A stretch of DNA of 64,000 nucleotides from a bacterium (lineage in GTDB: Bacteria > Electryoneota > Electryoneia > Electryoneales > Electryoneaceae). Positions 1 to 37,576 of this stretch are shown piece by piece. Below the pieces are notes generated by a model. The model was not told the DNA's origin, ran no database searches, and was given only the letters and a program-made list of their open reading frames with translations. Made by a program: the position numbers and the translations under genes. The stretch spans positions 62,001-126,000 of the forward strand of contig JAHLLH010000006.1 of NCBI GenBank assembly GCA_020444265.1. The letters run 5' to 3'. Each line of letters opens with the position of its first letter. The first letter of the stretch is position 1.

Positions 1-2
1 CT

Positions 3-1799
3 GCATATGGTTGCGAACTACGGGTTACGAACGGTTCAACGATAAGCCTGGTAGAAGATATTACACCCTCCGGTGACTCCATGTTTATTGGTTTTGTAGT
101 CATGAACAATACGCTTTACTTCGCGGCATATGACGGCATGAACGCCTACATCTACCGATCCGATGGTACGTCAGCAGGGACCTATGATTTCACTGACCCT
201 ACAGGAACGGCTATGGCTTCGGGGAATCTCGTCGACTGTGGCGACATTCTCTTGTTCGGATATCTTGATACCGACGGTGAGCTCACAATTCACTGTTATT
301 CATGGGCTCCCAATCCCCAAAAAAGCCTTGATCGCAACAAGTGGAGAATGGTCGGTATTCCGGTAAATGTGACTGCGGATCAGACTGGGGATAGTTTCTT
401 CCAGAATGACTTAGGTGACGCTGCTCCAAATGGCAGCAACTGGTGCATGTCGCAATGGAGCCCTGAAAACGACTGCTACATCCGTCTTTGTGAAACCGAC
501 TCGGATGGCTCAGACCATGGCGATCCCGAAGTTGTCACACCTGGCCAGGGTTATTGGATTATTCAGGACGTATATGATAGCGCGACCCTGGTAGTTGATG
601 ACGATCAAGAAGTGGGTATGTGCGTGGAGGACGATGAACCACCAATGGTTCTTATTAACAATCCTTCGGAGGAACCGGAGTACAGGGGTTTGACCATGAT
701 GGCAAATCCCTTTATGCAGCCTTATGAAATGATGCACAGTTGCTTCATTACGAGTAGTTCGCCTGAAGTAATTATGATTGAAGACTTCATTGCAATTGGC
801 GGCTGCAACGCCAACATCTATACATGGGATCCGAATGCCGGTGCTGCTGGCCAGTATGAGACTGTTGCCATTTCAGAAGCCATCCTTGATCCATGGGAAG
901 GATTCTGGTTCGAGGAATATGAGCCAATTAATGAATTGATATTCTGTTTTCTCTCAGACTATTGGTACGATGATTTGGGGAGCCATCCTGAAAAAATGGG
1001 GGATGATTTCGCCCGTACAACAGACACGGCATCCTCCTGGACCTTGGATCTGCCCGTCCGGTCTGTGGATGGCGCCTTCCTTGATGAGTATAACCGTATA
1101 GGTGTCGGCGAAAACTTCGATGACTCATTCGACCAATATGATGGTAGCGAATTCAACCCGATGGGCGGGCGTTTTGTGCAAGCCTATTTTGATCATCCAG
1201 AATGGTCAACCCAAACGGAAACCTTTACCTTCGACCTGCGCAGTACCGATTTCACAAATGGTCCCAAGGAGTGGGACTACACCGTTCGTACCTGGCGTTT
1301 AGGCAACCGTGAATTCGAGATCGTATGGCCAGGTATTTCCGACGTCCCCACCGAGTACCAGTTCACCTTGATCGACAACAGTACAGGCGCACCAGCCGAG
1401 ATGGACATGCGTGACCGCAGCAGCCTCCGTTTCCAGACCGGCCCGCACACGGGTGACTACGAGCTCCACAGCTGGACCATCCGTGTCGAGAAAACCTTCA
1501 TCACTGATACACCCGAGATCACCCTGGTGCCAAGCAGCTATGATTTCCAGTCGCCCTACCCGAACCCGTTCAATCCGACTGCCATGCTGACCATCGCCCT
1601 GCCTGAAGCAGGCGACCTCACGGTGCAAGTCTTTAATATGCTGGGGCAGCAGGTGGCAATCCTCGCTGACGGCAAGGTCAGTGCGGGTTATCAAAAATTT
1701 GTCTTGGATGCGACATCGTTGGCGAGTGGCACTTATCTGGTAAGGGCACAAGTTCCGGGAGAACTGAATGTGACAAAGCGGATTCAACTGATCAAATAG
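3..1799 (+). CDS. Secreted protein with C-terminal sorting domain, 5'-truncated
   Basis: This is the 3' part of a large exported protein. The frame is open from the first bases of the window, so the start lies upstream. The first visible residues (CELRVTNGS) resemble an ELWVTDGT-type beta-propeller repeat. The middle is acidic and aromatic-rich with no domain I recognise. The last 85 residues are a classic type IX-like sorting domain: SPYPNPFNPT, then a beta-sandwich with VFNMLGQQV and SGTYLVRAQ, ending in a basic KRIQLIK. Such domains direct cleavage and anchoring at the cell surface in the FCB group. The product is probably surface-attached or released; its substrate is unknown. The small peptide gene at 1830 follows 30 bases downstream. 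Confidence 0.85.
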   Translation, partial: AYGCELRVTNGSTISLVEDITPSGDSMFIGFVVMNNTLYFAAYDGMNAYIYRSDGTSAGTYDFTDPTGTAMASGNLVDCGDILLFGYLDTDGELTIHCYSWAPNPQKSLDRNKWRMVGIPVNVTADQTGDSFFQNDLGDAAPNGSNWCMSQWSPENDCYIRLCETDSDGSDHGDPEVVTPGQGYWIIQDVYDSATLVVDDDQEVGMCVEDDEPPMVLINNPSEEPEYRGLTMMANPFMQPYEMMHSCFITSSSPEVIMIEDFIAIGGCNANIYTWDPNAGAAGQYETVAISEAILDPWEGFWFEEYEPINELIFCFLSDYWYDDLGSHPEKMGDDFARTTDTASSWTLDLPVRSVDGAFLDEYNRIGVGENFDDSFDQYDGSEFNPMGGRFVQAYFDHPEWSTQTETFTFDLRSTDFTNGPKEWDYTVRTWRLGNREFEIVWPGISDVPTEYQFTLIDNSTGAPAEMDMRDRSSLRFQTGPHTGDYELHSWTIRVEKTFITDTPEITLVPSSYDFQSPYPNPFNPTAMLTIALPEAGDLTVQVFNMLGQQVAILADGKVSAGYQKFVLDATSLASGTYLVRAQVPGELNVTKRIQLIK

Positions 1800-1829
1800 G
1801 TGCTGTCATAACATCAAGGGGAGAGTTTT

Positions 1830-1934
1830 ATGTCAAGTGTTTTGCGGCCTTACGAGCCACCCTCTTTAGAAGAGATCCTGCAGCTCGATGAATCTTTGCA
1901 CGGATGGTCAGAAGGAGAACCTGGTCCGCCGTGA
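1830..1934 (+). CDS. 34-residue peptide of the PYxPPxxxEIxxLDE type
   Basis: A short frame of 34 codons plus TGA, preceded by a good ribosome-binding site (AAGGGGAG, about 6 bases before ATG) and followed 29 bases later by a strong hairpin terminator. The peptide contains RPYEPPSLEEILQLDE and a Gly/Pro-rich acidic tail. The same 15-residue pattern, with identical spacing, occurs in the separate peptide gene at 12991-13086, and this match is the main reason to believe in both. Tyr8-x-x-Pro11-x-Leu13 fits the YxxPxL leader motif known from lasso-peptide precursors. However, no maturation enzyme lies nearby and there is no clear core, so precursor status is only an inference. It could be cotranscribed with the secreted protein upstream. 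Confidence 0.6.
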   Translation: MSSVLRPYEPPSLEEILQLDESLHGWSEGEPGPP

Positions 1935-1962: not shown

Positions 1963-1992
1963 AAAACAGGCAGCCACATGGCTGCCTGTTTT
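1963..1992. terminator. Bidirectional hairpin terminator
   Basis: A perfect 13-bp inverted repeat (AAAACAGGCAGCC, loop ACAT, GGCTGCCTGTTTT) lies between the peptide gene and the convergent ackA. It carries A and T runs on both sides, so it can end transcription in either direction. Confidence 0.85.
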
Positions 1993-10721: not shown

Positions 10722-12245
10722 TCAGTCACCAAACTTTATGCCCTGTGCCAGCGGCAGTTCGTGGCTGTAGTTAATTGTGTTGGTCTGACGGCGCATGTAA
10801 GCCTTCCAGGAGTCACTACCGGACTCACGGCCACCGCCGGTTTCCTTTTCACCACCGAAGGCGCCGCCGATCTCCGCACCGGAGGTGCCAAGGTTGATAT
10901 TGGCGATGCCGCAATCGCTGCCGACTGGGCTGACGAAGGTTTCCGCTTCGACCACGTTGTTGGTAAAGATCGCGCTGGAAAGACCCTGCGGGACCTCATT
11001 GTGCCAGGCCAACGCCTCGTTCTCAAAGTCCTCATAGGTGAGGATGTAGAGGATCGGGGCAAAGGTCTCGTTGTGGACGATTTCCCAGTCATGCTCGGCT
11101 TCGACAATGGTCGGCTCGACATAGTAGCCGCCATCCTTGTCGATGGTGCTGCCACCGGTCAGGATCTTGCCACCCTTCTTCTTGATGGTTTCGAGGGCTT
11201 CCATCATCTCCTCGACACCGGCCTGGTTGACCAGCGGCCCCATCAGGATACCTTCTTTGAGCGGATCGCCGATGGTCACCTGCTTGTACGCGTTCAGCAG
11301 CTGGCTCATGAACTTCTCTTTGACCGACTTGTGCACGATGACGCGACGGGTCGAGGTGCACCGCTGACCGGAGGTGCCGACGGCGCCGAAGAGCACCGAA
11401 CGGACCGCCATGTCGAGGTTGGCAGACGGGGTTACGATAACCGCATTGTTGCCGCCCAGCTCGAGAATGGTGTTTCCGAGACGTTCGTGTACAACACGAC
11501 CGACACGCTTGCCCATGTTGGTCGAACCGGTGAACGAGACCAGCGGAATGCGGCTGTCGTTGATCAGGCGCTCACCGACAGTACGGCCCTTGCCGATCAC
11601 CGTATTGAACACACCGCTGTAGCCATGCTTCTTCGCGACATCGTTGGCGATATTCTGTACCGCCACCGCGCAAAGCGGAGCGTCCGAAGAGGGCTTCCAG
11701 ATGACCGGGTCGCCGCAGACGGCTGCCAAGGCGGTATTCCAGGCCCAGACTGCGACCGGGAAGTTGAAGGCGGTGATGATGCCGACAACACCCAACGGCT
11801 GCCACTGTTCCATCATGCGGTGCTGTGGACGTTCCGACTTGATGGTTAAACCGTAGAGCTGACGCGAAAGACCGACTGCGAAATCGCAGATGTCGATCAT
11901 TTCCTGCACTTCGCCTTCGCCTTCGGCCTGGATCTTGCCCATTTCGAGGCTGACCAGCTTGCCCAGCGCAGTCTTCTTCTCGCGCAATGCATTGCCAAGG
12001 TCGCGGATCATATCGCCGCGCACCGGGGCGGGGACCGTACGGAAGGTCTTGAAGGCTTCGGTCGCCTTCGCCATCACGGCTTCGTAATCGTCTTCGTTGG
12101 CCTGTTTAATCGTCGCGATCGGCTGGCCGGTGGCCGGGTTGAGCGATACCAGTTCTTCACGGTCATCGCCGGTGATCCACCCATCGGGACCATAGCACGC
12201 ACCGGGATTTACATCTTGAATCCCGAGTTCCTTCAGGAAATCCAT
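10722..12245 (-). CDS. Aldehyde dehydrogenase, ALDH7 (alpha-aminoadipic semialdehyde) type
   Basis: NAD(P)-dependent oxidation of an aldehyde to the acid. The closest match by eye is the antiquitin/AmaB group, which oxidises alpha-aminoadipic semialdehyde in lysine breakdown. It is 507 residues long, as usual for the group. Key features are ITAFNFPVAVWAWNTALA, VSFTGSTNMGKRV (cofactor site), ELGGNNAVIVTPSANLD containing the general-base Glu, and GTSGQRCTSTRR with catalytic Cys296; GGNNA and GQRCT are ALDH7-like. The start has GGAGTGAGG just upstream, overlapping the end of a degenerate gene remnant. It is the first intact gene of the ALDH - regulator - smpB - prenyl synthase - apbE run. Confidence 0.9.
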   Translation of the reverse strand: MDFLKELGIQDVNPGACYGPDGWITGDDREELVSLNPATGQPIATIKQANEDDYEAVMAKATEAFKTFRTVPAPVRGDMIRDLGNALREKKTALGKLVSLEMGKIQAEGEGEVQEMIDICDFAVGLSRQLYGLTIKSERPQHRMMEQWQPLGVVGIITAFNFPVAVWAWNTALAAVCGDPVIWKPSSDAPLCAVAVQNIANDVAKKHGYSGVFNTVIGKGRTVGERLINDSRIPLVSFTGSTNMGKRVGRVVHERLGNTILELGGNNAVIVTPSANLDMAVRSVLFGAVGTSGQRCTSTRRVIVHKSVKEKFMSQLLNAYKQVTIGDPLKEGILMGPLVNQAGVEEMMEALETIKKKGGKILTGGSTIDKDGGYYVEPTIVEAEHDWEIVHNETFAPILYILTYEDFENEALAWHNEVPQGLSSAIFTNNVVEAETFVSPVGSDCGIANINLGTSGAEIGGAFGGEKETGGGRESGSDSWKAYMRRQTNTINYSHELPLAQGIKFGD

Positions 12246-12249
12246 GACC

Positions 12250-12830
12250 TCACTCCGCTGTTGTAGCGTGGTACTCTTCGAAGGCAGTTATCAAGCCGGT
12301 ATCCTCCCGCCCCCAATTGCCAGCATAGGGGCCGGTTCCGGTGCGCTCGACAAATACCCTTGCACCATTTTTCTTGAAGACTTGAAGGTACCTACTCCCT
12401 TCGTGAGGAGTCAAACTAACCCCCGTGCCGCCGGAGGCTTCGTCAAGGGAATTTTGGGACTAAAACGAGGAGCTCTACGGGGTCCAGGGATTTGGTTCGT
12501 CGGAAAAGCCACGCAGGGTTTCGTCGAGTAGCTCAATCTCCACCAGGGTCGGGGGAGTGAAGACCAGAAGATGTTTGCCGATCTGCGTATTGATGTCCTG
12601 CTCGATCTACGACCTCTATGAAAAACAGCGACATACCGACCACCTGCCATGACTATCGACTCAACGTTCGGCGAGCTTAAGGTGTCATCGATACAATCAG
12701 GTGGAGAGATTCGTCAGCGATGGACGAAGGGATCGAGATCAATGGCACTTGCCACCATGATCTCCGAGCTGGTAAAGTTAGGTTTTCCGAACCCTTCCTG
12801 CAACAACGCACTTTCTCAAAAAGCGTAAAA
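12250..12830 (-). pseudogene. Degenerate coding remnants upstream of the ALDH gene
   Basis: Read on the minus strand, this stretch contains protein-like segments in shifting frames interrupted by stops. About 12620-12830 reads SSEIMVASAIDLDPFVHR, then TGA, then RISPPDCIDD ... AGGRYVAVFHRG in the same frame; the last part resembles a GyrI-like effector domain of AraC-type regulators. About 12250-12450 reads YLQVFKKNGARVFVERTG followed by GPYAGNWGREDTGLITAFEE, ending at a TGA 4 bases before the ALDH ATG, exactly where an operon partner would end. I cannot name either parent gene with confidence, and the two parts may have different origins. No intact frame spans the region. Chance similarity is possible. 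Confidence 0.35.
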
Positions 12831-12936
12831 CTACTCTAAACACAAAAATTACGAAACGAGACCTTGGCTCACCTTTCTTTATCCCTGTATGGACAACGTG
12901 GTGACTGTGACGTATTGACTGTTCTGAACTACGGCA

Positions 12937-12969
12937 CAAAAAACGCGGGACAGAAGATCTGCCCCGCGT
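12937..12969 (-). terminator. Intrinsic terminator of the 31-residue peptide gene
   Basis: On the minus strand a 7-bp stem (ACGCGGG/CCCGCGT, extended after one mismatch by CTG/CAG) is followed directly by six T residues. It lies 22 bases after the peptide gene's stop codon. Confidence 0.8.
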
Positions 12970-12990
12970 GCAATCTGTTTTGATCGGATT

Positions 12991-13086
12991 CTATTCAATT
13001 GGTCCTGATGTCCCTACGGCTGTTTCGTCCAACAATGGTATTTCATCCACCATCGGTGGAGTGTAGGGTACTCGACAGTCATCCAT
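12991..13086 (-). CDS. 31-residue peptide of the PYxPPxxxEIxxLDE type
   Basis: A 31-codon frame plus TAG with AAGGAG 5 bases before the ATG and a strong terminator right after it. The peptide contains VPYTPPMVDEIPLLDE, which matches the 34-residue peptide at 1830-1934 at 9 of 15 positions without gaps; both then have Gly, Ser and GP in a short tail. A single Cys is present at position 4. No neighbouring gene looks like a partner: the closest are the degenerate region and an fmdB-type gene. Gene reality rests on the shared motif plus the ribosome-binding site and terminator. Function is unknown; a modified-peptide precursor or a small signalling peptide are possible but unsupported. Confidence 0.6.
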   Translation of the reverse strand: MDDCRVPYTPPMVDEIPLLDETAVGTSGPIE

Positions 13087-13658
13087 CGCGTCTCCTTGCT
13101 CCAATAGATCAGAAGCGATTGTTGTCTGAATCTGTTCCCACTGGTGAAGGGTCGCAGACATAAACCAGTTATGGGACTGACGTATGCAGACCCCGTATTG
13201 TGAAGCCTGAAAAGTGGGGGGCTAACAGAATATTACGAGTGGCTAGCATGCGCACCCCCCGTTGCATGCCATCCACCAGATTAAGAAGAATAAAACTCTT
13301 TATGGTGTCGCGATTTACCGAACCGTACGCAACTTTTGAGATTTATTACATTTAATCAAGTGTTAAATCAGCTTATGTGAAAAATGTTGCATAGCAGAGA
13401 GTCCTCTGCTTTCCTGCCCTAATTAGTTCCTGAACAATAACCAGGTACAGAACCAGGAGGGTATTGGAGTCCTATTGCTTGTCGCAAAACGAGGTGCCTG
13501 TCGCAAATATCGATGCTGACCGACAATAGAATGAGAGCGGTAGGTTTTCTAAATGAATTGCCAAGACGGTATATGAACTTAGAGATAGGGAAGGCTATCA
13601 GCATGACGGCATATCTTGAAATCCTATCACCCGATATGTTGGTGCAAACGCTAAAGAG
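13087..13658. other. Gene-poor region
   Basis: No frame in these 570 bases has both coding character and a ribosome-binding site. It is locally A+T-rich around 13330-13380 and probably holds the promoter of the minus-strand 31-residue peptide gene, though no convincing -35/-10 pair stands out. Confidence 0.5.
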
Positions 13659-13687
13659 AAAAGCAAAACGCGAGTCGTTTTGCTTTT
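13659..13687 (-). terminator. Terminator of the fmdB-type gene
   Basis: A perfect 12-bp stem (AAAAGCAAAACG/CGTTTTGCTTTT) around loop CGAGT lies 27 bases after the stop of the minus-strand fmdB-type gene, followed by TCTCTTT on that strand. Confidence 0.8.
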
Positions 13688-13714
13688 AGATAGTTCCGTG
13701 CCTGTGAAAAGCTG

Positions 13715-14044
13715 TTATTCCCCGGAGTTTTTGGATGCCTTCTCCGGTTTTTTTGACTCGCCATTATGCGTCGATGCCGATTTGTCCACTTTCGAACCAG
13801 CGTCGGAGGAGTCGCTGTGGCTGTGCCCGTTTGAATCGCCATTCGAAGGAACGCTGCTGTGGCCGTTCTTGTAGTCGGTGATATAGAAGCCACTGCCTTT
13901 AAAAATCAGGCCCACCCCAGCGCCGATGCGCTTTTTCGCGAGCGCACCACATTCCGGGCAGTGTCGTTCGGTTTCGTCGCTGATGCTGTGAAACAGATCG
14001 AACTGGTGATCACATTCCGTGCAGGCATAGGTGTACGTTGGCAT
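13715..14044 (-). CDS. FmdB-type zinc ribbon protein
   Basis: A small cytoplasmic zinc-ribbon protein of the FmdB/putative regulatory protein family. The start at ATG 14044 gives the family's usual MPTYxYxC opening and has GAGGAG 8 bases upstream; a GTG three codons earlier is less likely. Cys pairs are CTEC and CPEC. IGAGVGLIFKGSGFYITDYK is the conserved second half. The last 40 residues form a low-complexity Ser/His/Lys/Asp tail (NGHSHSDSSDAGSK...) that is longer than in many relatives. Molecular role is not established for the family. It is a single gene with its own terminator. Confidence 0.88.
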   Translation of the reverse strand: MPTYTYACTECDHQFDLFHSISDETERHCPECGALAKKRIGAGVGLIFKGSGFYITDYKNGHSSVPSNGDSNGHSHSDSSDAGSKVDKSASTHNGESKKPEKASKNSGE

Positions 14045-22831: not shown

Positions 22832-24508
22832 TCACCGTAGCAGTACAACCCGCTGTTGAGTACTCTGGCCAAACCCATTATTGGTTTGGATATAATAAGT
22901 ACCTGATGCAACCCCCGATGCATCCCAGGTAAGCAACCCATGACCACTGCTTCCCGCCTCTGGTTGAAGCACAGCAATCCGTCTGCCCAACAGGTCAAAA
23001 ACTTCGACATTCCGAAGCCTTCCGGGAGTGGTGAGACGAATGTTCAGGTGGCTGTTGAACGGATTGGGCCAGGTTTGGAGGGAGATGTGAGCCGGGAGTG
23101 TTGATTCATACCTCTGTTCCTTTACTCCCAGCGAGGGCGTTCCCCAGGAACCATCAGGACCAACCACATTGGCCAATAGTAGCTCTGACTGCTCGTCAGT
23201 ATCGTCCGCACTCCAGACAACATAGCTGTTCCCCGCTTCGTCACGAGTCACTTTCCCCTGGTTGATTGAGCGAGCTCCATAAACTGGATATCGCCAAAGC
23301 TGGGTACCATAATGATCGAACCCGTAGAGATAGGTCGTATCCGTCTCTTCGCCCAGATACGGACGGGCCAACATGCTGATGCCCTGACCATCCATGGCAC
23401 AGCAGTGATGTGTGGTGGATGGAAGGAGACGTTGTGTGTCATGATTGGGTGCGGGCGTGAGGTTCTCATCCAGCAGGACGTGGTAGCCTTCCACAAAAAT
23501 CGAATACCCATCATCACTTGTCCTCGTCATACACATGACAGGCTCATCCCCGCCATACGTGGGCAGGTAAAAGGGTTCAGAGGCGGTAATGTCTCCCGAA
23601 TCGCTGATACGATACCCTCGTGAGGAATCGTCGTCACAAGGTCCAGTCGCCACAAGGATACCATTGTCCTGCACATCCAGAAACTTGGTCCAGCGACGGA
23701 TCATCATTCCAGGCAAGAGGCAGTCGCCAAACCCCCAGACGACCGATCCGTGCGGGGTAATCCGGACAACACTGTTGCCTGCGATCAACGCGAGGTCATG
23801 TGAGCCGGGAAGCACGACTGCCTTCGAGGCGCCTGTACCCCAAACGTGCGATGAATCCGGGATGAGTTGAATGCCACCTTCCTGCCAGACCGGTTGGCCA
23901 AGGGTGTTGTAGCGCTGGGCGAAGAACGCCGGACCACCATAATCCCAGCGGCCCATATCATCTTTCCAAACCACATACACCGACCCATCGCCAAGCGGTG
24001 CCAGCGCAAGCAGACGTTTCCATTGAGGGACATCATCGCCATGGAACGGCGCGACAATCCGAAGACCGTACTCATAATCGGCCCACTGGGGAACACCATC
24101 CGGGCTCAATTTCTGGAGGAGAAGCTGGCTGCCGAACAACTCTGGATCACCGGCATACCCGGACATACATTCAAAAAAAAGCCAGGTGGTCCCATCTGGA
24201 TCGGAGGCTGACAGCGCATGATCTCCCCACGGGTCAAGCGAGTAGGCCTCCACTCCGTTTGGATCGGCGATCCAGCTTAGCTCACCCCCACGGCTCACCC
24301 GTTGAAAGCTGATGGTTCCATTTAAACTGGCACCTCGCCAGAAAGAAAAGACGGAAAGCCCTGTTAATCCTTCCGTATGGATCGCCAATGGGGTTGTATA
24401 GCGACCCGTTGCTACAGGCAATCCACTTGTTTCGGTAACCGGCCATTGAGCGTGGGCTGGCAATGAGCCTAGAATTGCAGTAAAAATAAGGCAGACCAAA
24501 CATTTCAT
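22832..24508 (-). CDS. Secreted protein with C-terminal sorting domain
   Basis: A 558-residue exported protein. Starting at 24508 gives a signal peptide (MKCLVCLIFTAILGSLPAHA); an upstream frame to 24577 would bury it and lacks a ribosome-binding site. The central 430 residues look like a beta-propeller of WD/PQQ-like blades (repeated W, GDGSVYVVWKDD, DEAGNSYVVWS), a family often annotated as hypothetical. The last 80 residues form the type IX-like sorting domain: WPNPFNSHLNIRL, VEVFDLLGRRIAVL, SGTYYIQT, ending QQRVVLLR. Surface display or release is expected. Substrate or function is unknown. Confidence 0.85.
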   Translation of the reverse strand: MKCLVCLIFTAILGSLPAHAQWPVTETSGLPVATGRYTTPLAIHTEGLTGLSVFSFWRGASLNGTISFQRVSRGGELSWIADPNGVEAYSLDPWGDHALSASDPDGTTWLFFECMSGYAGDPELFGSQLLLQKLSPDGVPQWADYEYGLRIVAPFHGDDVPQWKRLLALAPLGDGSVYVVWKDDMGRWDYGGPAFFAQRYNTLGQPVWQEGGIQLIPDSSHVWGTGASKAVVLPGSHDLALIAGNSVVRITPHGSVVWGFGDCLLPGMMIRRWTKFLDVQDNGILVATGPCDDDSSRGYRISDSGDITASEPFYLPTYGGDEPVMCMTRTSDDGYSIFVEGYHVLLDENLTPAPNHDTQRLLPSTTHHCCAMDGQGISMLARPYLGEETDTTYLYGFDHYGTQLWRYPVYGARSINQGKVTRDEAGNSYVVWSADDTDEQSELLLANVVGPDGSWGTPSLGVKEQRYESTLPAHISLQTWPNPFNSHLNIRLTTPGRLRNVEVFDLLGRRIAVLQPEAGSSGHGLLTWDASGVASGTYYIQTNNGFGQSTQQRVVLLR

Positions 24509-24763
24509 TTTTTCGCTCGCTCTCGAAATCGGAGTTGAAGGGATTGTGGGGATCTTTAATATGTCTTTTTCATTCATTCAATGAAAGGACTGCCCCGGTT
24601 CAACCCACTTCCTGTCGGCTGGTGGTATGCCCCAAGAGGAGTTCAGCTGATTTATCTCTTCTGTCTGGCACCGGTAGCTCGCCATAGCATCCCCAACGAG
24701 GAATCCTTACATTGAGTTTTTCTTACGTTAAAGTGAAATGTGCCTGAATCGTGTGGACGGTTG

Positions 24764-32718: not shown

Positions 32719-32860
32719 TCGCGCAGCAGAATGAACCTACCTTTCGCTTTTCGCACCAACTTGGGACGTTCCGTTGTCCCTTCCCGAATAACCATGTATT
32801 TTGAATGAAGCTAGCTGTGGGACCCGACCCCATCGCATCCCCCGCAAACACGAGTGGTCC

Positions 32861-35800
32861 ATGCCCCTCTTGATTCGTCTCCATTTCCTGAGCTCCCTTC
32901 TGCTGGTCAGCTCACTGGCACTCGCACGTGCCCCGATGTTGACCTCTGACCAAGCGGAAACGCGGATAAGTCGTCACGAAAACTCAATCCTCGTTTCACT
33001 CAGCAGTACGGTGGCGAACATCGAGGAGACAAACGAAACCGAGTTCCTTCCGACCCGGACCTTTCTTTTGCCCGGGCTACACCATCAGCCAATTCCGGTT
33101 GAGGTACTCTCTACTCTGAGTGAGCCGCTTTCTTCCGAGCTTTCCAACCTTCTTGACCGGCTCTATCCAACAGGCCAGCCATTTGCCGAGCTGGACCGAG
33201 CTGTTCAACTCAGGGACTTTGAGGGTACACAGTACAAATTTGTCCCGTTTGTCCGAGTTGGCGCAGTCTGGCGAGAGGTCGAGCAGTTCCGTTTAGATCT
33301 GCCGGGTGGCATGGACAATGGACTTCGAGGCCGTTCGATCGCGCCCTCATTTGCCCCGATTTACGCCGAGTTGCTGGGGCTGGATTCGCTCGATGAACTC
33401 GGTATCCCGGTCGAGTCCGGCGGGTACCTGGTGGTCGGTAACCCGGAGTACCTCGAGGCGATCGAGGAATGGACAGATTGGAAACGGCGTTGCGGGGTAC
33501 GGATTGACACCCTGCAAACCGGTACCTCAACCACATTTGCGGTGGTCAAAAGCCGTATCCAGGCGCGTTTCAACAATGCGGACGTCCCCCCGGAATACCT
33601 GTTGATTGTTGCTGATCCGGTCTGGGGAAATCGTATCCCTGGCAGCTACTACCCCTCCCAGCCGTACGGCCCGATTGTGACCGACCACCCCTACTCCCTG
33701 CTCGCCGGGGACGACTATTTCCCCGACATTTGGGTAGGACGCTGGTCAATCCGTTCCCCACTCGAGGCGAGAACCATCGCCCGCAAATCCATCGCCTACG
33801 AACAAGGCACCTACCTGGCCAATGATCCGGACTGGGTGCAACGTGGGCTGGTGGTTTGCGATGCGACCTACAGTTCTACAGGGTTGACATCGAGTTGGAT
33901 ACGGCGTGAGATGTTGCGATTCGGCTTCAGCCAGGTGGACTCGGTGTGGGCGCCGGACATCACCACACCCGGTCCCCAGGCAGCGGTAATGAACGATGGT
34001 GTCGGATGGGTGTCATACCGTGGGTTCGGCTCCCCATCAGGTTGGGTACAGCCCGTTTTTGATGTGCAGGATGCCCTCGGTTTGCAGAATGCCGGACGTA
34101 CTCCAATTGTCACTGGCACGGTCTGTGGTGTGGGGCGTTTCGACGATGAAACCGATCCCTGCCTGGGCGAGGCCTTCCTGCGAGCCGGCACCCCGACCAT
34201 TCCCATCGGCGGAGTGGCCTTTGTCGGCCCCAGCGAAATCGACACGCACACACGCTGGAACAATTGTATGTCGACCGGGATCTATACCGGTCTGCTGCGT
34301 GAGGGGATGACCACACTGGGGCCGATCATTTTCAGGGGCAAACAGAACATCTGGAACGGGTTCCCCAACAATCATGAACCGGGCAACAGCGAGTCCTCCG
34401 CCCTCTTCTATTTCCACACCTACAATATCCTCGGCGACCCGGGGCTGCTGGTGCGGTCCCGCACAGCAGAACCATTGACGTTGGACTACCCGGAAAGCTT
34501 GACCACCGGGGCCAACGATTTACCGGTATCAGTATCTGACAGCGAAGGGACCCCGGTTGAGGGAGCCCACATTGCGGTTTCTGGCGCGAGCTGGGGTCCG
34601 CTCTCCCTGGTCAGCGACCGGGACGGCACTGTTCGCTTCGATTTTAGCGAACAACTACCGCCGGTCGGTGAACTGGTCCTGACCGCCACGATGTACAACG
34701 CCATCCCGGCAATCGACACCCTGCTGGTCGGCGATGCTCCCCTCGCGGTCCGTCTCGATTCGTTGACCATCAGTGGTCCCGTGCATCCCGGTGCCGAGTT
34801 GACGCTGACCCCGTACATCGGCAACAGCGGAACAGGAGCTCAGGAAGGGTTCACCGCCACCCTAACCTCTCTGGATAGCCGTGCGGACATCCTCGGCGGA
34901 ACCAACAGCTATACCTCGCTTGGTTCTCCCGGCGAACAGGCTAACCCGGTTCAGAGTTTCGCAGTTGAGGTTCCGGTAAATGCTCAAGATGGCAGGGAAT
35001 TGGGATTGCTGCTGAGCCTTGAGTTTGCGAATGGTACACGCAGCCTCCGTCTCCCGCTGACTGTCGAGGCTCCCTCCCTCGAGCTGACGGAAGATGTCTT
35101 CGTGACAGATGGTCCCGGCACAAATGCGACCGGAGTTGTGCAGCTGGTCAATAACGGATCGCTCGCCAGTATTGAAAGCGACTTCGAGATTGTGCTGCCG
35201 GAAGGAGCGCCCCTCACCGCGGTGCGACGAATCACCACCTTGCCTGCTTTACAACCGGGTGAAGACGGCCTGCTTGCGACACCGCTGTCTATTTCGATTG
35301 GCGACGAGGCATTTACCGGGGATCGCTGGTCCATCGGCTGGCGAGCAAGCGACCCCTCGGGACGTGTGGAACGCGGCACGTTCACCCTTGTTGCGGGTGT
35401 AGCGGGGCCGGGCGATCCATCGTTGCCCGATGCTTACGGTTACCGTGCCTACGACGACAGCGACTACGGCACCTATGGTCGTCCTGCCTTCGACTGGTTC
35501 GAGATTGATGCCCGACGTGGTGGGCCCGGCTCTCAAGTTTATCTGCCGGACTACGGAGACGAGCAGGACCGTGTCACCTGGCGATACCTCCCCTTCGATG
35601 TCCAGTACTTTGGCGAGACCTACAGCCAGATCAGCATTTGCTCCAATGGCTGGATCGCATTCGGACATACCGAGGATGTCAATTTTCGTAATTGGAACCT
35701 CCCAAGCGGCCCCGGACCGACCAACATCCTTGCCCCCTTCTGGGATGACCTCTACCTCGATCGTGGGCGGGTGTCCGCCTACCACAACGAGGAAGAAGGG

Positions 35801-37576
35801 GTCTTTATCATCCAGTGGTCGGATGCTCGTCTCCCTTACGGTCTGGATGACAGCCAGGCGCAAAACTTTCAAGTCTTGATCTACGACCAGGAACACTATC
35901 CGACCGAAACCGGTGATAACGAGATCGCTTTTCAGTACGCCGAAATTCACGACCTTGATGCCTCCGAAAACTTCGCGACCGTCGGCTTGCGAAATAGCGA
36001 TGGGTCCAGCGGGTTGCAGCTCAGTTACGCCCGCCGTCAAAACCCCTCCGAACCACCGCTCCATTCCGGGATGGCCTACCGCATCACTACAGCCACCCGT
36101 GGTGTTGGACGGGATATCCGTCTGGAACAAACCGACGTCTATGACAACGGCGAGTTTGGCAGCGAGGGCAATGGGGATGGGCTGATCGACGCGGGGGAAC
36201 GTGTCATGCTCAACCTCCGGGTGCGGAATGTTGGTACCGAGACTGCTGAGCATTTCCGAATCCGACTCGCTGAGACGGATGATGCTGTCAGCCTGGGTAC
36301 TCAGCTGGTGGGCTTCAACCATGTTGAGCCTGGAGAGGTGGCGAGTGCACTGGCCATGGTCCCGCTCGAGATCGCGTCGGATGCTGAGGATGGGCACTAT
36401 TTCCGTCTCTCGATGAGCTTCGAGGTAACGGGGAACGAACCGCTCCGTCAAACCGGAGCCGCCTACCTGATCCACGCACCGAGAATCCGTCTCAGCGGCA
36501 TGAATATCACCGAAGAAGCAGGCGATGGTGACGGCAATTATGAAGCGGGTGAAACGTTTATCATCGATGCCGTGCTGAGCAACGCGGGCAGCGGTTCGGT
36601 GGCTGACTTGGATGTCCAACTTGAGGCGAGCGACCCCTTTGTTGAGATCCTGGCAGGAAGCGGATCCATTTCCGATTTCCCAGCCGGAACTTCTCGTACG
36701 ATCACGGGATTCCGTGTCCATATTGACAATCAGTGTCCCGATTTACGGATCATCCAGATTCCGATCCGTCTCGATCAAGATGGACGGCTTGTCGCAAGGG
36801 ATACCCTCTTCTTCCAGATCGGGGATTATCCCCTGCTCGATTCATTCGAGGGGTTCGCTACGGACAATTGGACCTTCTCGGACAATTTCTGGCACCGCAC
36901 AGATGACCGTTCCATCTCCGGTGCGCATTCGCTCCACTGGGGACACGAAGACTTCCAGGGTTATCCTTCGATCCAGGCCACCCACATGACCAGCGAACCC
37001 TTTGATCTGATAGGAACCGGGGAGCTCGATCTGTTCGCGTTTGTTGACCTCTCCTTCACCGCACGGACCAGCGTGAAGCTTCTCTATGCGGACGGTGATT
37101 CAGCACGGCTTGTCTACCATGCTGGTCCAACCCAGGGCTGGGAACGATGGACCTTCCCCATCACCAACCATCGTCAGGACCCATCGACGCGTGTCCGCAT
37201 TTCGCTCTATCCTCATTTCTGGGACAATGGCACCGGCTTTTACATCGACGATATCATCGTACGCACTGCTGAAACCGGGATAGATGAGGCAACCATCAGC
37301 AACCTCCCCGATAGCTTCGCCCTGCACCCGATCCGCCCGAACCCCTTTAACCCATCGACCATCATCCAGGTAGACCTGCCTACTGCGGCAAGGCTGGAGC
37401 TGAAGCTCTACAACCTGCTTGGGCAGGAGGTGAAGCGGCTTTACAGTGGTCCCGCTCCGGCTGGGGTAAAGCGAATCATGCTAGACGCCGACGGCCTCTC
37501 CTCGGGGGTCTATTTCCTCCACGCATCCATCCCCGGAAAGCTGGACAGCCGTCAGAAGGTGGTCCTCTTGAAATAG
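32861..37576 (+). CDS. C25 (gingipain-like) secreted protein with sorting domain, catalytic His replaced
   Basis: A 1571-residue exported protein. The ATG at 32861 gives the signal peptide (LHFLSSLLLVSSLALARA); the frame opens earlier with TTG at 32801. Residues about 180-540 are a C25 peptidase domain: YLLIVADPVWGNRIPG, GDDYFPDIWVGR, VSYRGFGSPSGW, TVCGVGRFDDETDPCLGEAFLRAG, GVAFVGPSEIDTHTRWNN. Cys422 aligns with the gingipain nucleophile, 33 residues after the position of the catalytic His, which here is Phe389 (GFG instead of GHG). Ig-like and jelly-roll domains follow (about 550-1480). The sorting domain (HPIRPNPFNPSTIIQVDLP ... LYNLLGQEVKRL ... SGVYFLHA) ends the protein. Probably surface-located, proteolytically doubtful. 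Confidence 0.85.
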   Translation: MPLLIRLHFLSSLLLVSSLALARAPMLTSDQAETRISRHENSILVSLSSTVANIEETNETEFLPTRTFLLPGLHHQPIPVEVLSTLSEPLSSELSNLLDRLYPTGQPFAELDRAVQLRDFEGTQYKFVPFVRVGAVWREVEQFRLDLPGGMDNGLRGRSIAPSFAPIYAELLGLDSLDELGIPVESGGYLVVGNPEYLEAIEEWTDWKRRCGVRIDTLQTGTSTTFAVVKSRIQARFNNADVPPEYLLIVADPVWGNRIPGSYYPSQPYGPIVTDHPYSLLAGDDYFPDIWVGRWSIRSPLEARTIARKSIAYEQGTYLANDPDWVQRGLVVCDATYSSTGLTSSWIRREMLRFGFSQVDSVWAPDITTPGPQAAVMNDGVGWVSYRGFGSPSGWVQPVFDVQDALGLQNAGRTPIVTGTVCGVGRFDDETDPCLGEAFLRAGTPTIPIGGVAFVGPSEIDTHTRWNNCMSTGIYTGLLREGMTTLGPIIFRGKQNIWNGFPNNHEPGNSESSALFYFHTYNILGDPGLLVRSRTAEPLTLDYPESLTTGANDLPVSVSDSEGTPVEGAHIAVSGASWGPLSLVSDRDGTVRFDFSEQLPPVGELVLTATMYNAIPAIDTLLVGDAPLAVRLDSLTISGPVHPGAELTLTPYIGNSGTGAQEGFTATLTSLDSRADILGGTNSYTSLGSPGEQANPVQSFAVEVPVNAQDGRELGLLLSLEFANGTRSLRLPLTVEAPSLELTEDVFVTDGPGTNATGVVQLVNNGSLASIESDFEIVLPEGAPLTAVRRITTLPALQPGEDGLLATPLSISIGDEAFTGDRWSIGWRASDPSGRVERGTFTLVAGVAGPGDPSLPDAYGYRAYDDSDYGTYGRPAFDWFEIDARRGGPGSQVYLPDYGDEQDRVTWRYLPFDVQYFGETYSQISICSNGWIAFGHTEDVNFRNWNLPSGPGPTNILAPFWDDLYLDRGRVSAYHNEEEGVFIIQWSDARLPYGLDDSQAQNFQVLIYDQEHYPTETGDNEIAFQYAEIHDLDASENFATVGLRNSDGSSGLQLSYARRQNPSEPPLHSGMAYRITTATRGVGRDIRLEQTDVYDNGEFGSEGNGDGLIDAGERVMLNLRVRNVGTETAEHFRIRLAETDDAVSLGTQLVGFNHVEPGEVASALAMVPLEIASDAEDGHYFRLSMSFEVTGNEPLRQTGAAYLIHAPRIRLSGMNITEEAGDGDGNYEAGETFIIDAVLSNAGSGSVADLDVQLEASDPFVEILAGSGSISDFPAGTSRTITGFRVHIDNQCPDLRIIQIPIRLDQDGRLVARDTLFFQIGDYPLLDSFEGFATDNWTFSDNFWHRTDDRSISGAHSLHWGHEDFQGYPSIQATHMTSEPFDLIGTGELDLFAFVDLSFTARTSVKLLYADGDSARLVYHAGPTQGWERWTFPITNHRQDPSTRVRISLYPHFWDNGTGFYIDDIIVRTAETGIDEATISNLPDSFALHPIRPNPFNPSTIIQVDLPTAARLELKLYNLLGQEVKRLYSGPAPAGVKRIMLDADGLSSGVYFLHASIPGKLDSRQKVVLLK

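Follow-up and report, generated by a model that had tools for sequence, protein, structure and literature searches.

Does a frame of only 34 codons in the 64,000-nucleotide stretch of bacterial DNA analysed here (the window) encode a real peptide and, if so, what is that peptide for? The preliminary description had paired this frame (peptide 1) with a minus-strand frame 11 kb away (peptide 2), on the basis of a shared 15-residue segment and of a ribosome-binding site and a terminator at each, and had supposed a family of tiny peptides. The likeness is borne out: the segments PYEPPSLEEILQLDE and PYTPPMVDEIPLLDE of peptides 1 and 2 are identical at nine of 15 positions without a gap, and this pair is unique among the 42 open reading frames of 25-58 aa in the window that are preceded by a Shine-Dalgarno site (about 850 pairs; the runner-up reaches 7/15). 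Shine-Dalgarno sites and terminator-like hairpins are found for both frames (Table 1), the hairpin after peptide 1 not being among the matches of a stricter terminator pattern scan of the window. Starting from an in-frame ATG farther upstream, at 13161, peptide 2 would reach 56 aa, but the ribosome-binding site fits the start at 13086. Both copies are real; when peptide 1 by itself served as query, a third, which had been overlooked, came to light near peptide 2 and on its strand. Its frame holds no ATG, GTG or TTG before the motif, so that it either uses an unusual start codon or is decaying, and it joins the leader of this family to a tail (FSDEPNPW) that resembles the core of a second subfamily considered below. 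Peptides 2 and 3 lie in 1.5 kb without a long gene (12246-13714), between an aldehyde dehydrogenase gene and a zinc-ribbon gene, a region that may be a decaying locus. A search of 12200-13900 for decayed remnants of a surface protein or an enzyme cassette gave no convincing match.

Table 1. Features of the window and of the two enzyme gene clusters elsewhere in the same genome (G000); plain positions are those of the window.
Feature	Position	Strand	Details
Partner gene, 3' part	1..1799	+	whole gene G000:C4:60986-63799, 937 aa from ATG
Ribosome-binding site of peptide 1	1816..1823	+	AAGGGGAG, 6 nt before ATG (sequence)
Peptide 1 precursor gene	1830..1934	+	34 aa, MSSVLRPYEPPSLEEILQLDESLHGWSEGEPGPP followed by a stop; 30 bp after the partner gene
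Intrinsic-terminator-like hairpin after peptide 1	1963..1992	+	13 bp, 3' side ends in UUUU, -23.1 kcal/mol, z -4.0
Third family member	12475..12606	-	VFTPPTLVEIELLDETLRGFSDEPNPWTP; open frame of 43 codons and stop
Terminator of peptide 2	12943..12969	-	after peptide 2
Peptide 2 precursor gene	12991..13086	-	31 aa, MDDCRVPYTPPMVDEIPLLDETAVGTSGPIE followed by a stop
Ribosome-binding site of peptide 2	13092..13097	-	AAGGAG (sequence)
Own-genome cassette	C11:353186-355077		RRE (L086:9276-9572), kinase ScmC (L086:9580-10449), peptidase (L086:10442-11077); separate contig from the window peptides
Second LPP-like cluster	G000:C11:97684-100637 (L087:8684-11637)		precursor ending in LFSDEPDPWGP, peptidase, PF14907 nucleotidyltransferase, PqqD, HprK-like kinase

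Profile searches show that the short peptide is a real member of a small precursor-peptide family of one little-known phylum. A model of the three window sequences finds only these copies in the own genome at E<1, and finds relatives' copies in Ca. Electryonea clarkiae (G001, two copies; same family as the window organism), in G010 (two) and in G026, G005, G006, G031, G033 and G017, at E-values from 5.4e-10 to 0.06, with matches directly beside PqqD genes; a 13-row model recovers the same set at E 3e-8 to 6e-19, with three copies in G033. All relatives' copies belong to Candidatus Electryoneota, which includes Ca. Hatepunaea and Ca. Tariuqbacter, and no match was found outside this phylum at E<=0.001 (386 genomes searched); several of the relatives' contigs are short. 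The family consensus reads Y-E-K/P-P-x-L-x-E-I-x-L-L-D-E-[ST]-A-x-G-[WFY]-S-x-E-P-x-P-P and thus holds YxxPxL, a type of leader motif that RiPP recognition elements (RREs) bind and to which the preliminary description had drawn attention. Purifying selection acts on the peptide: substitutions between the G005 and G006 copies are mostly synonymous (dN 0.09, dS 1.62), and the three G033 copies differ with dN 0.07-0.09 at saturated dS. The shortness of the frames and the missing start of the third copy could suggest a chance resemblance of untranslated sequence, but the model E-values, a dN well below dS and conservation across three families of the phylum leave this reading with a negligible probability, and the relatives already refute it. 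A lack of further copies or of frame conservation had been named in advance as what would speak against a family; neither holds.

In the relatives, the peptide gene has on one side the gene of a secreted protein with type IX sorting and on the other a RiPP cassette, whose genes encode a PqqD protein (PF05402), ScmC, a signal peptidase, an MsbA-like ABC transporter and a PF14907 nucleotidyltransferase. All five functions (RRE, HprK-like kinase, peptidase, NTP transferase and exporter) are present in G001, G026, G033 and one locus of G010 (C279); gene order varies and some loci are without the full five, the G017 cassette (C124) having no peptidase. The HprK-like kinase is ScmC (TIGR04249), scoring 244 and 284 bits in two relatives and 196 bits in the own genome at a cut-off of 125, and an AlphaFold model of the own protein (pLDDT 89) matches PEPCK and HprK/P structures, which predicts a kinase fold. 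The PqqD/ScmD-like RREs reach 61-89 bits against TIGR04248, below its cut-off of 100. The signal peptidase is of the archaeal type (TIGR02228), and the SxM, HR and GD motifs are kept in the peptidases.

That no modifying enzyme lies nearby, as was first remarked, is true of the window, but most relatives have the cassette beside the peptide, and a search for RRE-containing enzymes elsewhere in the genome, as had been proposed, leads to an RRE in a cassette on contig C11. No family peptide was found adjoining this cassette, so that the window peptides would be served in trans; the G033 peptides likewise lie apart from their cassette. The own genome yielded no dedicated exporter (best candidate 194 bits, 29%) and no nucleotidyltransferase linked to this cassette. 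Across 39 genomes of the phylum, all nine with a clear peptide have ScmC over the cut-off and all 29 without ScmC lack the peptide, a co-occurrence with a Fisher p of 5e-8, falling to 1.6e-9 when G012 is placed among the peptide genomes, both values uncorrected for kinship. G012, the tenth genome with ScmC, carries a Cys/Gly precursor and two radical-SAM-like genes; its locus (L218, contig C93) is a radical-SAM SynChlorMet cassette within the same phylum, with a precursor beginning MEYEKPELKELDTGHGQQCMNGSSAPGETCLSGG, and represents a sister type to the kinase-only cassettes.

The other recurrent neighbour is the secreted protein. The upstream gene at the edge of the window, passed over in the preliminary description, is part of the conserved neighbourhood of the peptide: it encodes a protein with a signal-peptide-like N-terminus, ELWxxDGT repeats, a conserved module of about 400 aa (window 243-1538) and a type IX C-terminal sorting tail that matches PF18962/TIGR04183 over the cut-off. 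The module, marked by the motif GIPxxV...PGxGYW...ANPF...WxGFW, corresponds to no Pfam family; it is homologous to the proteins whose genes adjoin the peptide gene in relatives (E 2e-90 for that of G001) and occurs in secreted proteins of 15 of the 39 genomes. Its AlphaFold model (pLDDT 64) has no PDB match at E<=0.001 and is uninformative as to fold. Thirteen of the 15 peptides of this family flank the gene of a module-bearing secreted protein, in divergent orientation in G005 and G006, the exceptions being window peptides 2 and 3; given about 20 strong module genes, the chance expectation is roughly 0.02, a rough figure as the genomes are related. At the second strong module gene of the own genome (C9:717099) no adjoining peptide was found. 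Of 13 genomes examined for SprA, 12 have it, among them the own genome, which therefore has a type IX system. Guilt by association would thus couple peptide and surface protein. Two further large type IX-tailed proteins are encoded in the window (22835-24577, minus strand; 32792-37573, plus strand), without module and without peptide.

A related precursor subfamily, [YW]xPPxIxEKxxxxxxLFSDEPDPWGP, was first found beside module genes in G015 and G010, where three peptides and one peptide, respectively, flank such genes. With a model of this subfamily, a single copy was detected in the own genome (G000:C11:100470-100559), and this copy belongs to the second cluster of Table 1, whose HprK-like kinase matches TIGR00679 at E 2e-8, below the cut-off. 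The same block occurs in G003 and G004 and in part in G001. Both subfamilies have the core [FWY]-S-[DE]-x-P in common, which points to the core Ser as the putative modified residue.

Based on the above data, we consider it likely that the family supplies the precursors of a linear-phosphopeptide (LPP-like) RiPP system, whose product would most probably work at the cell surface together with the type-IX-sorted neighbour. The leader Y-x-K/P-P-x-L-x-E-I-x-L-L would be held by the stand-alone PqqD/ScmD-type RRE, while the HprK/PEPCK-fold kinase ScmC would phosphorylate the core, which is short, acidic and rich in Pro (A-x-G-[WFY]-S-x-E-P-x-P), at its Ser. The archaeal-type signal peptidase would release the core from its leader either near LDE[ST]|A or at A-x-G; in cassettes that include them, the PF14907 nucleotidyltransferase may add to the phosphate and the MsbA-like ABC transporter may export the product. 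In the own genome, the precursors would be served by the RRE, kinase and peptidase on contig C11.

The known LPP system (LppA/K/B/S/D/N) has been described as restricted to Bacillota; there, deletion and in vitro assay established what kinase, peptidase and RRE do, core Ser3 receives several phosphates from LppK, LppS cleaves after FET with the aid of the RRE LppB, LppN had no detectable effect in the host used, and the biological role is unknown (Popov et al. 2026, PMC13381572). Common to both systems are an RRE, an HprK-like kinase, an archaeal-type signal peptidase, an MsbA-like exporter and an NTP transferase, together with a YxxPx[L/V] leader, an E-[T/S]-A boundary and a linear core with a Ser soon after it; the family's LDE[ST]-AxGxS resembles FET|AQS of LPP. 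Counted from [ST]-1, the core Ser stands at +5 here and at +3 in LPP. Most family peptides have YxxPx[L/V/I], whereas the rest of the motif, LDE[ST]AxGxS, departs from the LPP consensus YxxPxVLxHQxIxFETxxS (PMC13381572). As this consensus is matched only in part, we call the system LPP-like rather than a proven member. It also differs in its host, Candidatus Electryoneota, in a kinase of the ScmC family, in leader and core sequence, in precursors that may lie far from the cassette, and in that most of these adjoin a type-IX-sorted protein, LPP being found at capsule loci. Besides the partial consensus match and the different Ser spacing, the own cassette without exporter and nucleotidyltransferase, the lack of a surface-protein neighbour at peptides 2 and 3, the third copy without a normal start and a ScmD score of 61 bits against the TIGR04248 cut-off of 100 speak against the LPP-like reading.

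The same leader and enzymes invite comparison with two other RiPP classes. The preliminary description had thought of lasso-peptide systems because of YxxPxL; the PqqD proteins of the cassettes also match lasso PqqD models, and HprK-like kinases and nucleotidyltransferases are likewise encoded in paeninodin-type clusters (PMC8498205). Lasso peptides of the paeninodin and pseudomycoidin types share with the family an RRE, a Ser-phosphorylating HprK-like kinase, a nucleotidyltransferase and an exporter. However, a scan of the cassette genes revealed neither macrolactam cyclase nor B2 cysteine protease, the enzyme for leader removal is of the signal-peptidase type, an Asp/Glu at ring position 7-9 is not consistent and the cores are only about 10-16 aa long in the own genome. 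We therefore reject lasso identity, for want of cyclase and B2 genes in the cassettes, and hold lasso precursors to be very improbable; LPP and SynChlorMet relatives match better. ScmA-type precursors of the radical-SAM SynChlorMet system (ScmA-ScmF; TIGR04248, TIGR04249, TIGR04252) would account for a kinase that is ScmC over the cut-off and for the ScmD-like RRE, and ScmC-adjoining precursors of other phyla have the same YEKPxL leader and A-x-G boundary, one of them matching ScmA weakly. But radical SAM genes, present at 58 of 75 other ScmC loci, are missing from all five loci that carry a peptide of this type (Fisher p 0.001), the family core has no Cys and is not of the Cys/Gly type, and the ScmA model TIGR04252 matches neither the window peptides nor those of relatives. 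Membership of the radical-SAM system was rejected on the missing ScmA match and radical SAM genes, and we judge this origin quite improbable. Of the ScmC-locus precursors tested, the one that matches the ScmA model falls below its cut-off, so that this model may be too narrow. Among the papers available to the literature search, none mentions SynChlorMet.

The peptide could instead be a small helper of the secreted protein outside RiPP biosynthesis (e.g. a chaperone, a translational attenuator or a stability factor), its cassette link being incidental: it is physically most tightly linked to the gene of the secreted protein, at 30 bp, and this holds for G033 too, whose cassette lies apart, and G015 has related peptides beside module genes with no ScmC over the cut-off. 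Such a role is unlikely in view of the genome-level co-occurrence with ScmC, the RRE-type leader, the same or related peptides heading complete cassettes, including the second one of the own genome, and two of three window copies without a secreted-protein neighbour.

Under the preferred LPP-like reading, an enzyme cassette of its own probably phosphorylates, trims and exports the peptides, and a second phylum has the LPP gene set that had been described only for Bacillota. The surface-protein neighbourhood is a first clue to the purpose of such peptides, since precursors apart from their enzymes and repeatedly paired with one secreted-protein family provide a testable idea of what LPP-like peptides act on. 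It is conceivable, if rather doubtful, that the peptide, once processed and phosphorylated, serves the neighbouring type-IX-secreted surface protein as a dedicated ligand or is attached to it as a covalent decoration, with the module as receiver and one enzyme set serving several dispersed peptide-protein pairs. If true, this would tie RiPP maturation to type IX secretion and give the LPP class a function; none of the papers available to the literature search joins type IX secretion with a RiPP and precursor peptide. Enzyme-centred mining would miss such short precursors on contigs other than those of their enzymes.

Further observations concern the enzyme genes at large. ScmC loci of many phyla, archaea included (L104-L183), hold precursors in which a YEKPxL leader is followed by a core rich in Cys/Gly, in many cases with A-x-G at the boundary. 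In G005 and G006, the PF14907 nucleotidyltransferase (L035:2619-4244 and L034:5104-6747, both minus strand) has an N-terminal extension with YGGSMRSLFR that resembles a signal-peptidase domain, and the gene is likely a peptidase-nucleotidyltransferase fusion. On contig C13 of the own genome (L088:8662-13444), a PF14907 nucleotidyltransferase gene overlaps that of a WecB-like epimerase and adjoins heptose-phosphatase-, GmhA- and ManC-like genes (named by eye), a group in which a link to sugar phosphates is possible.
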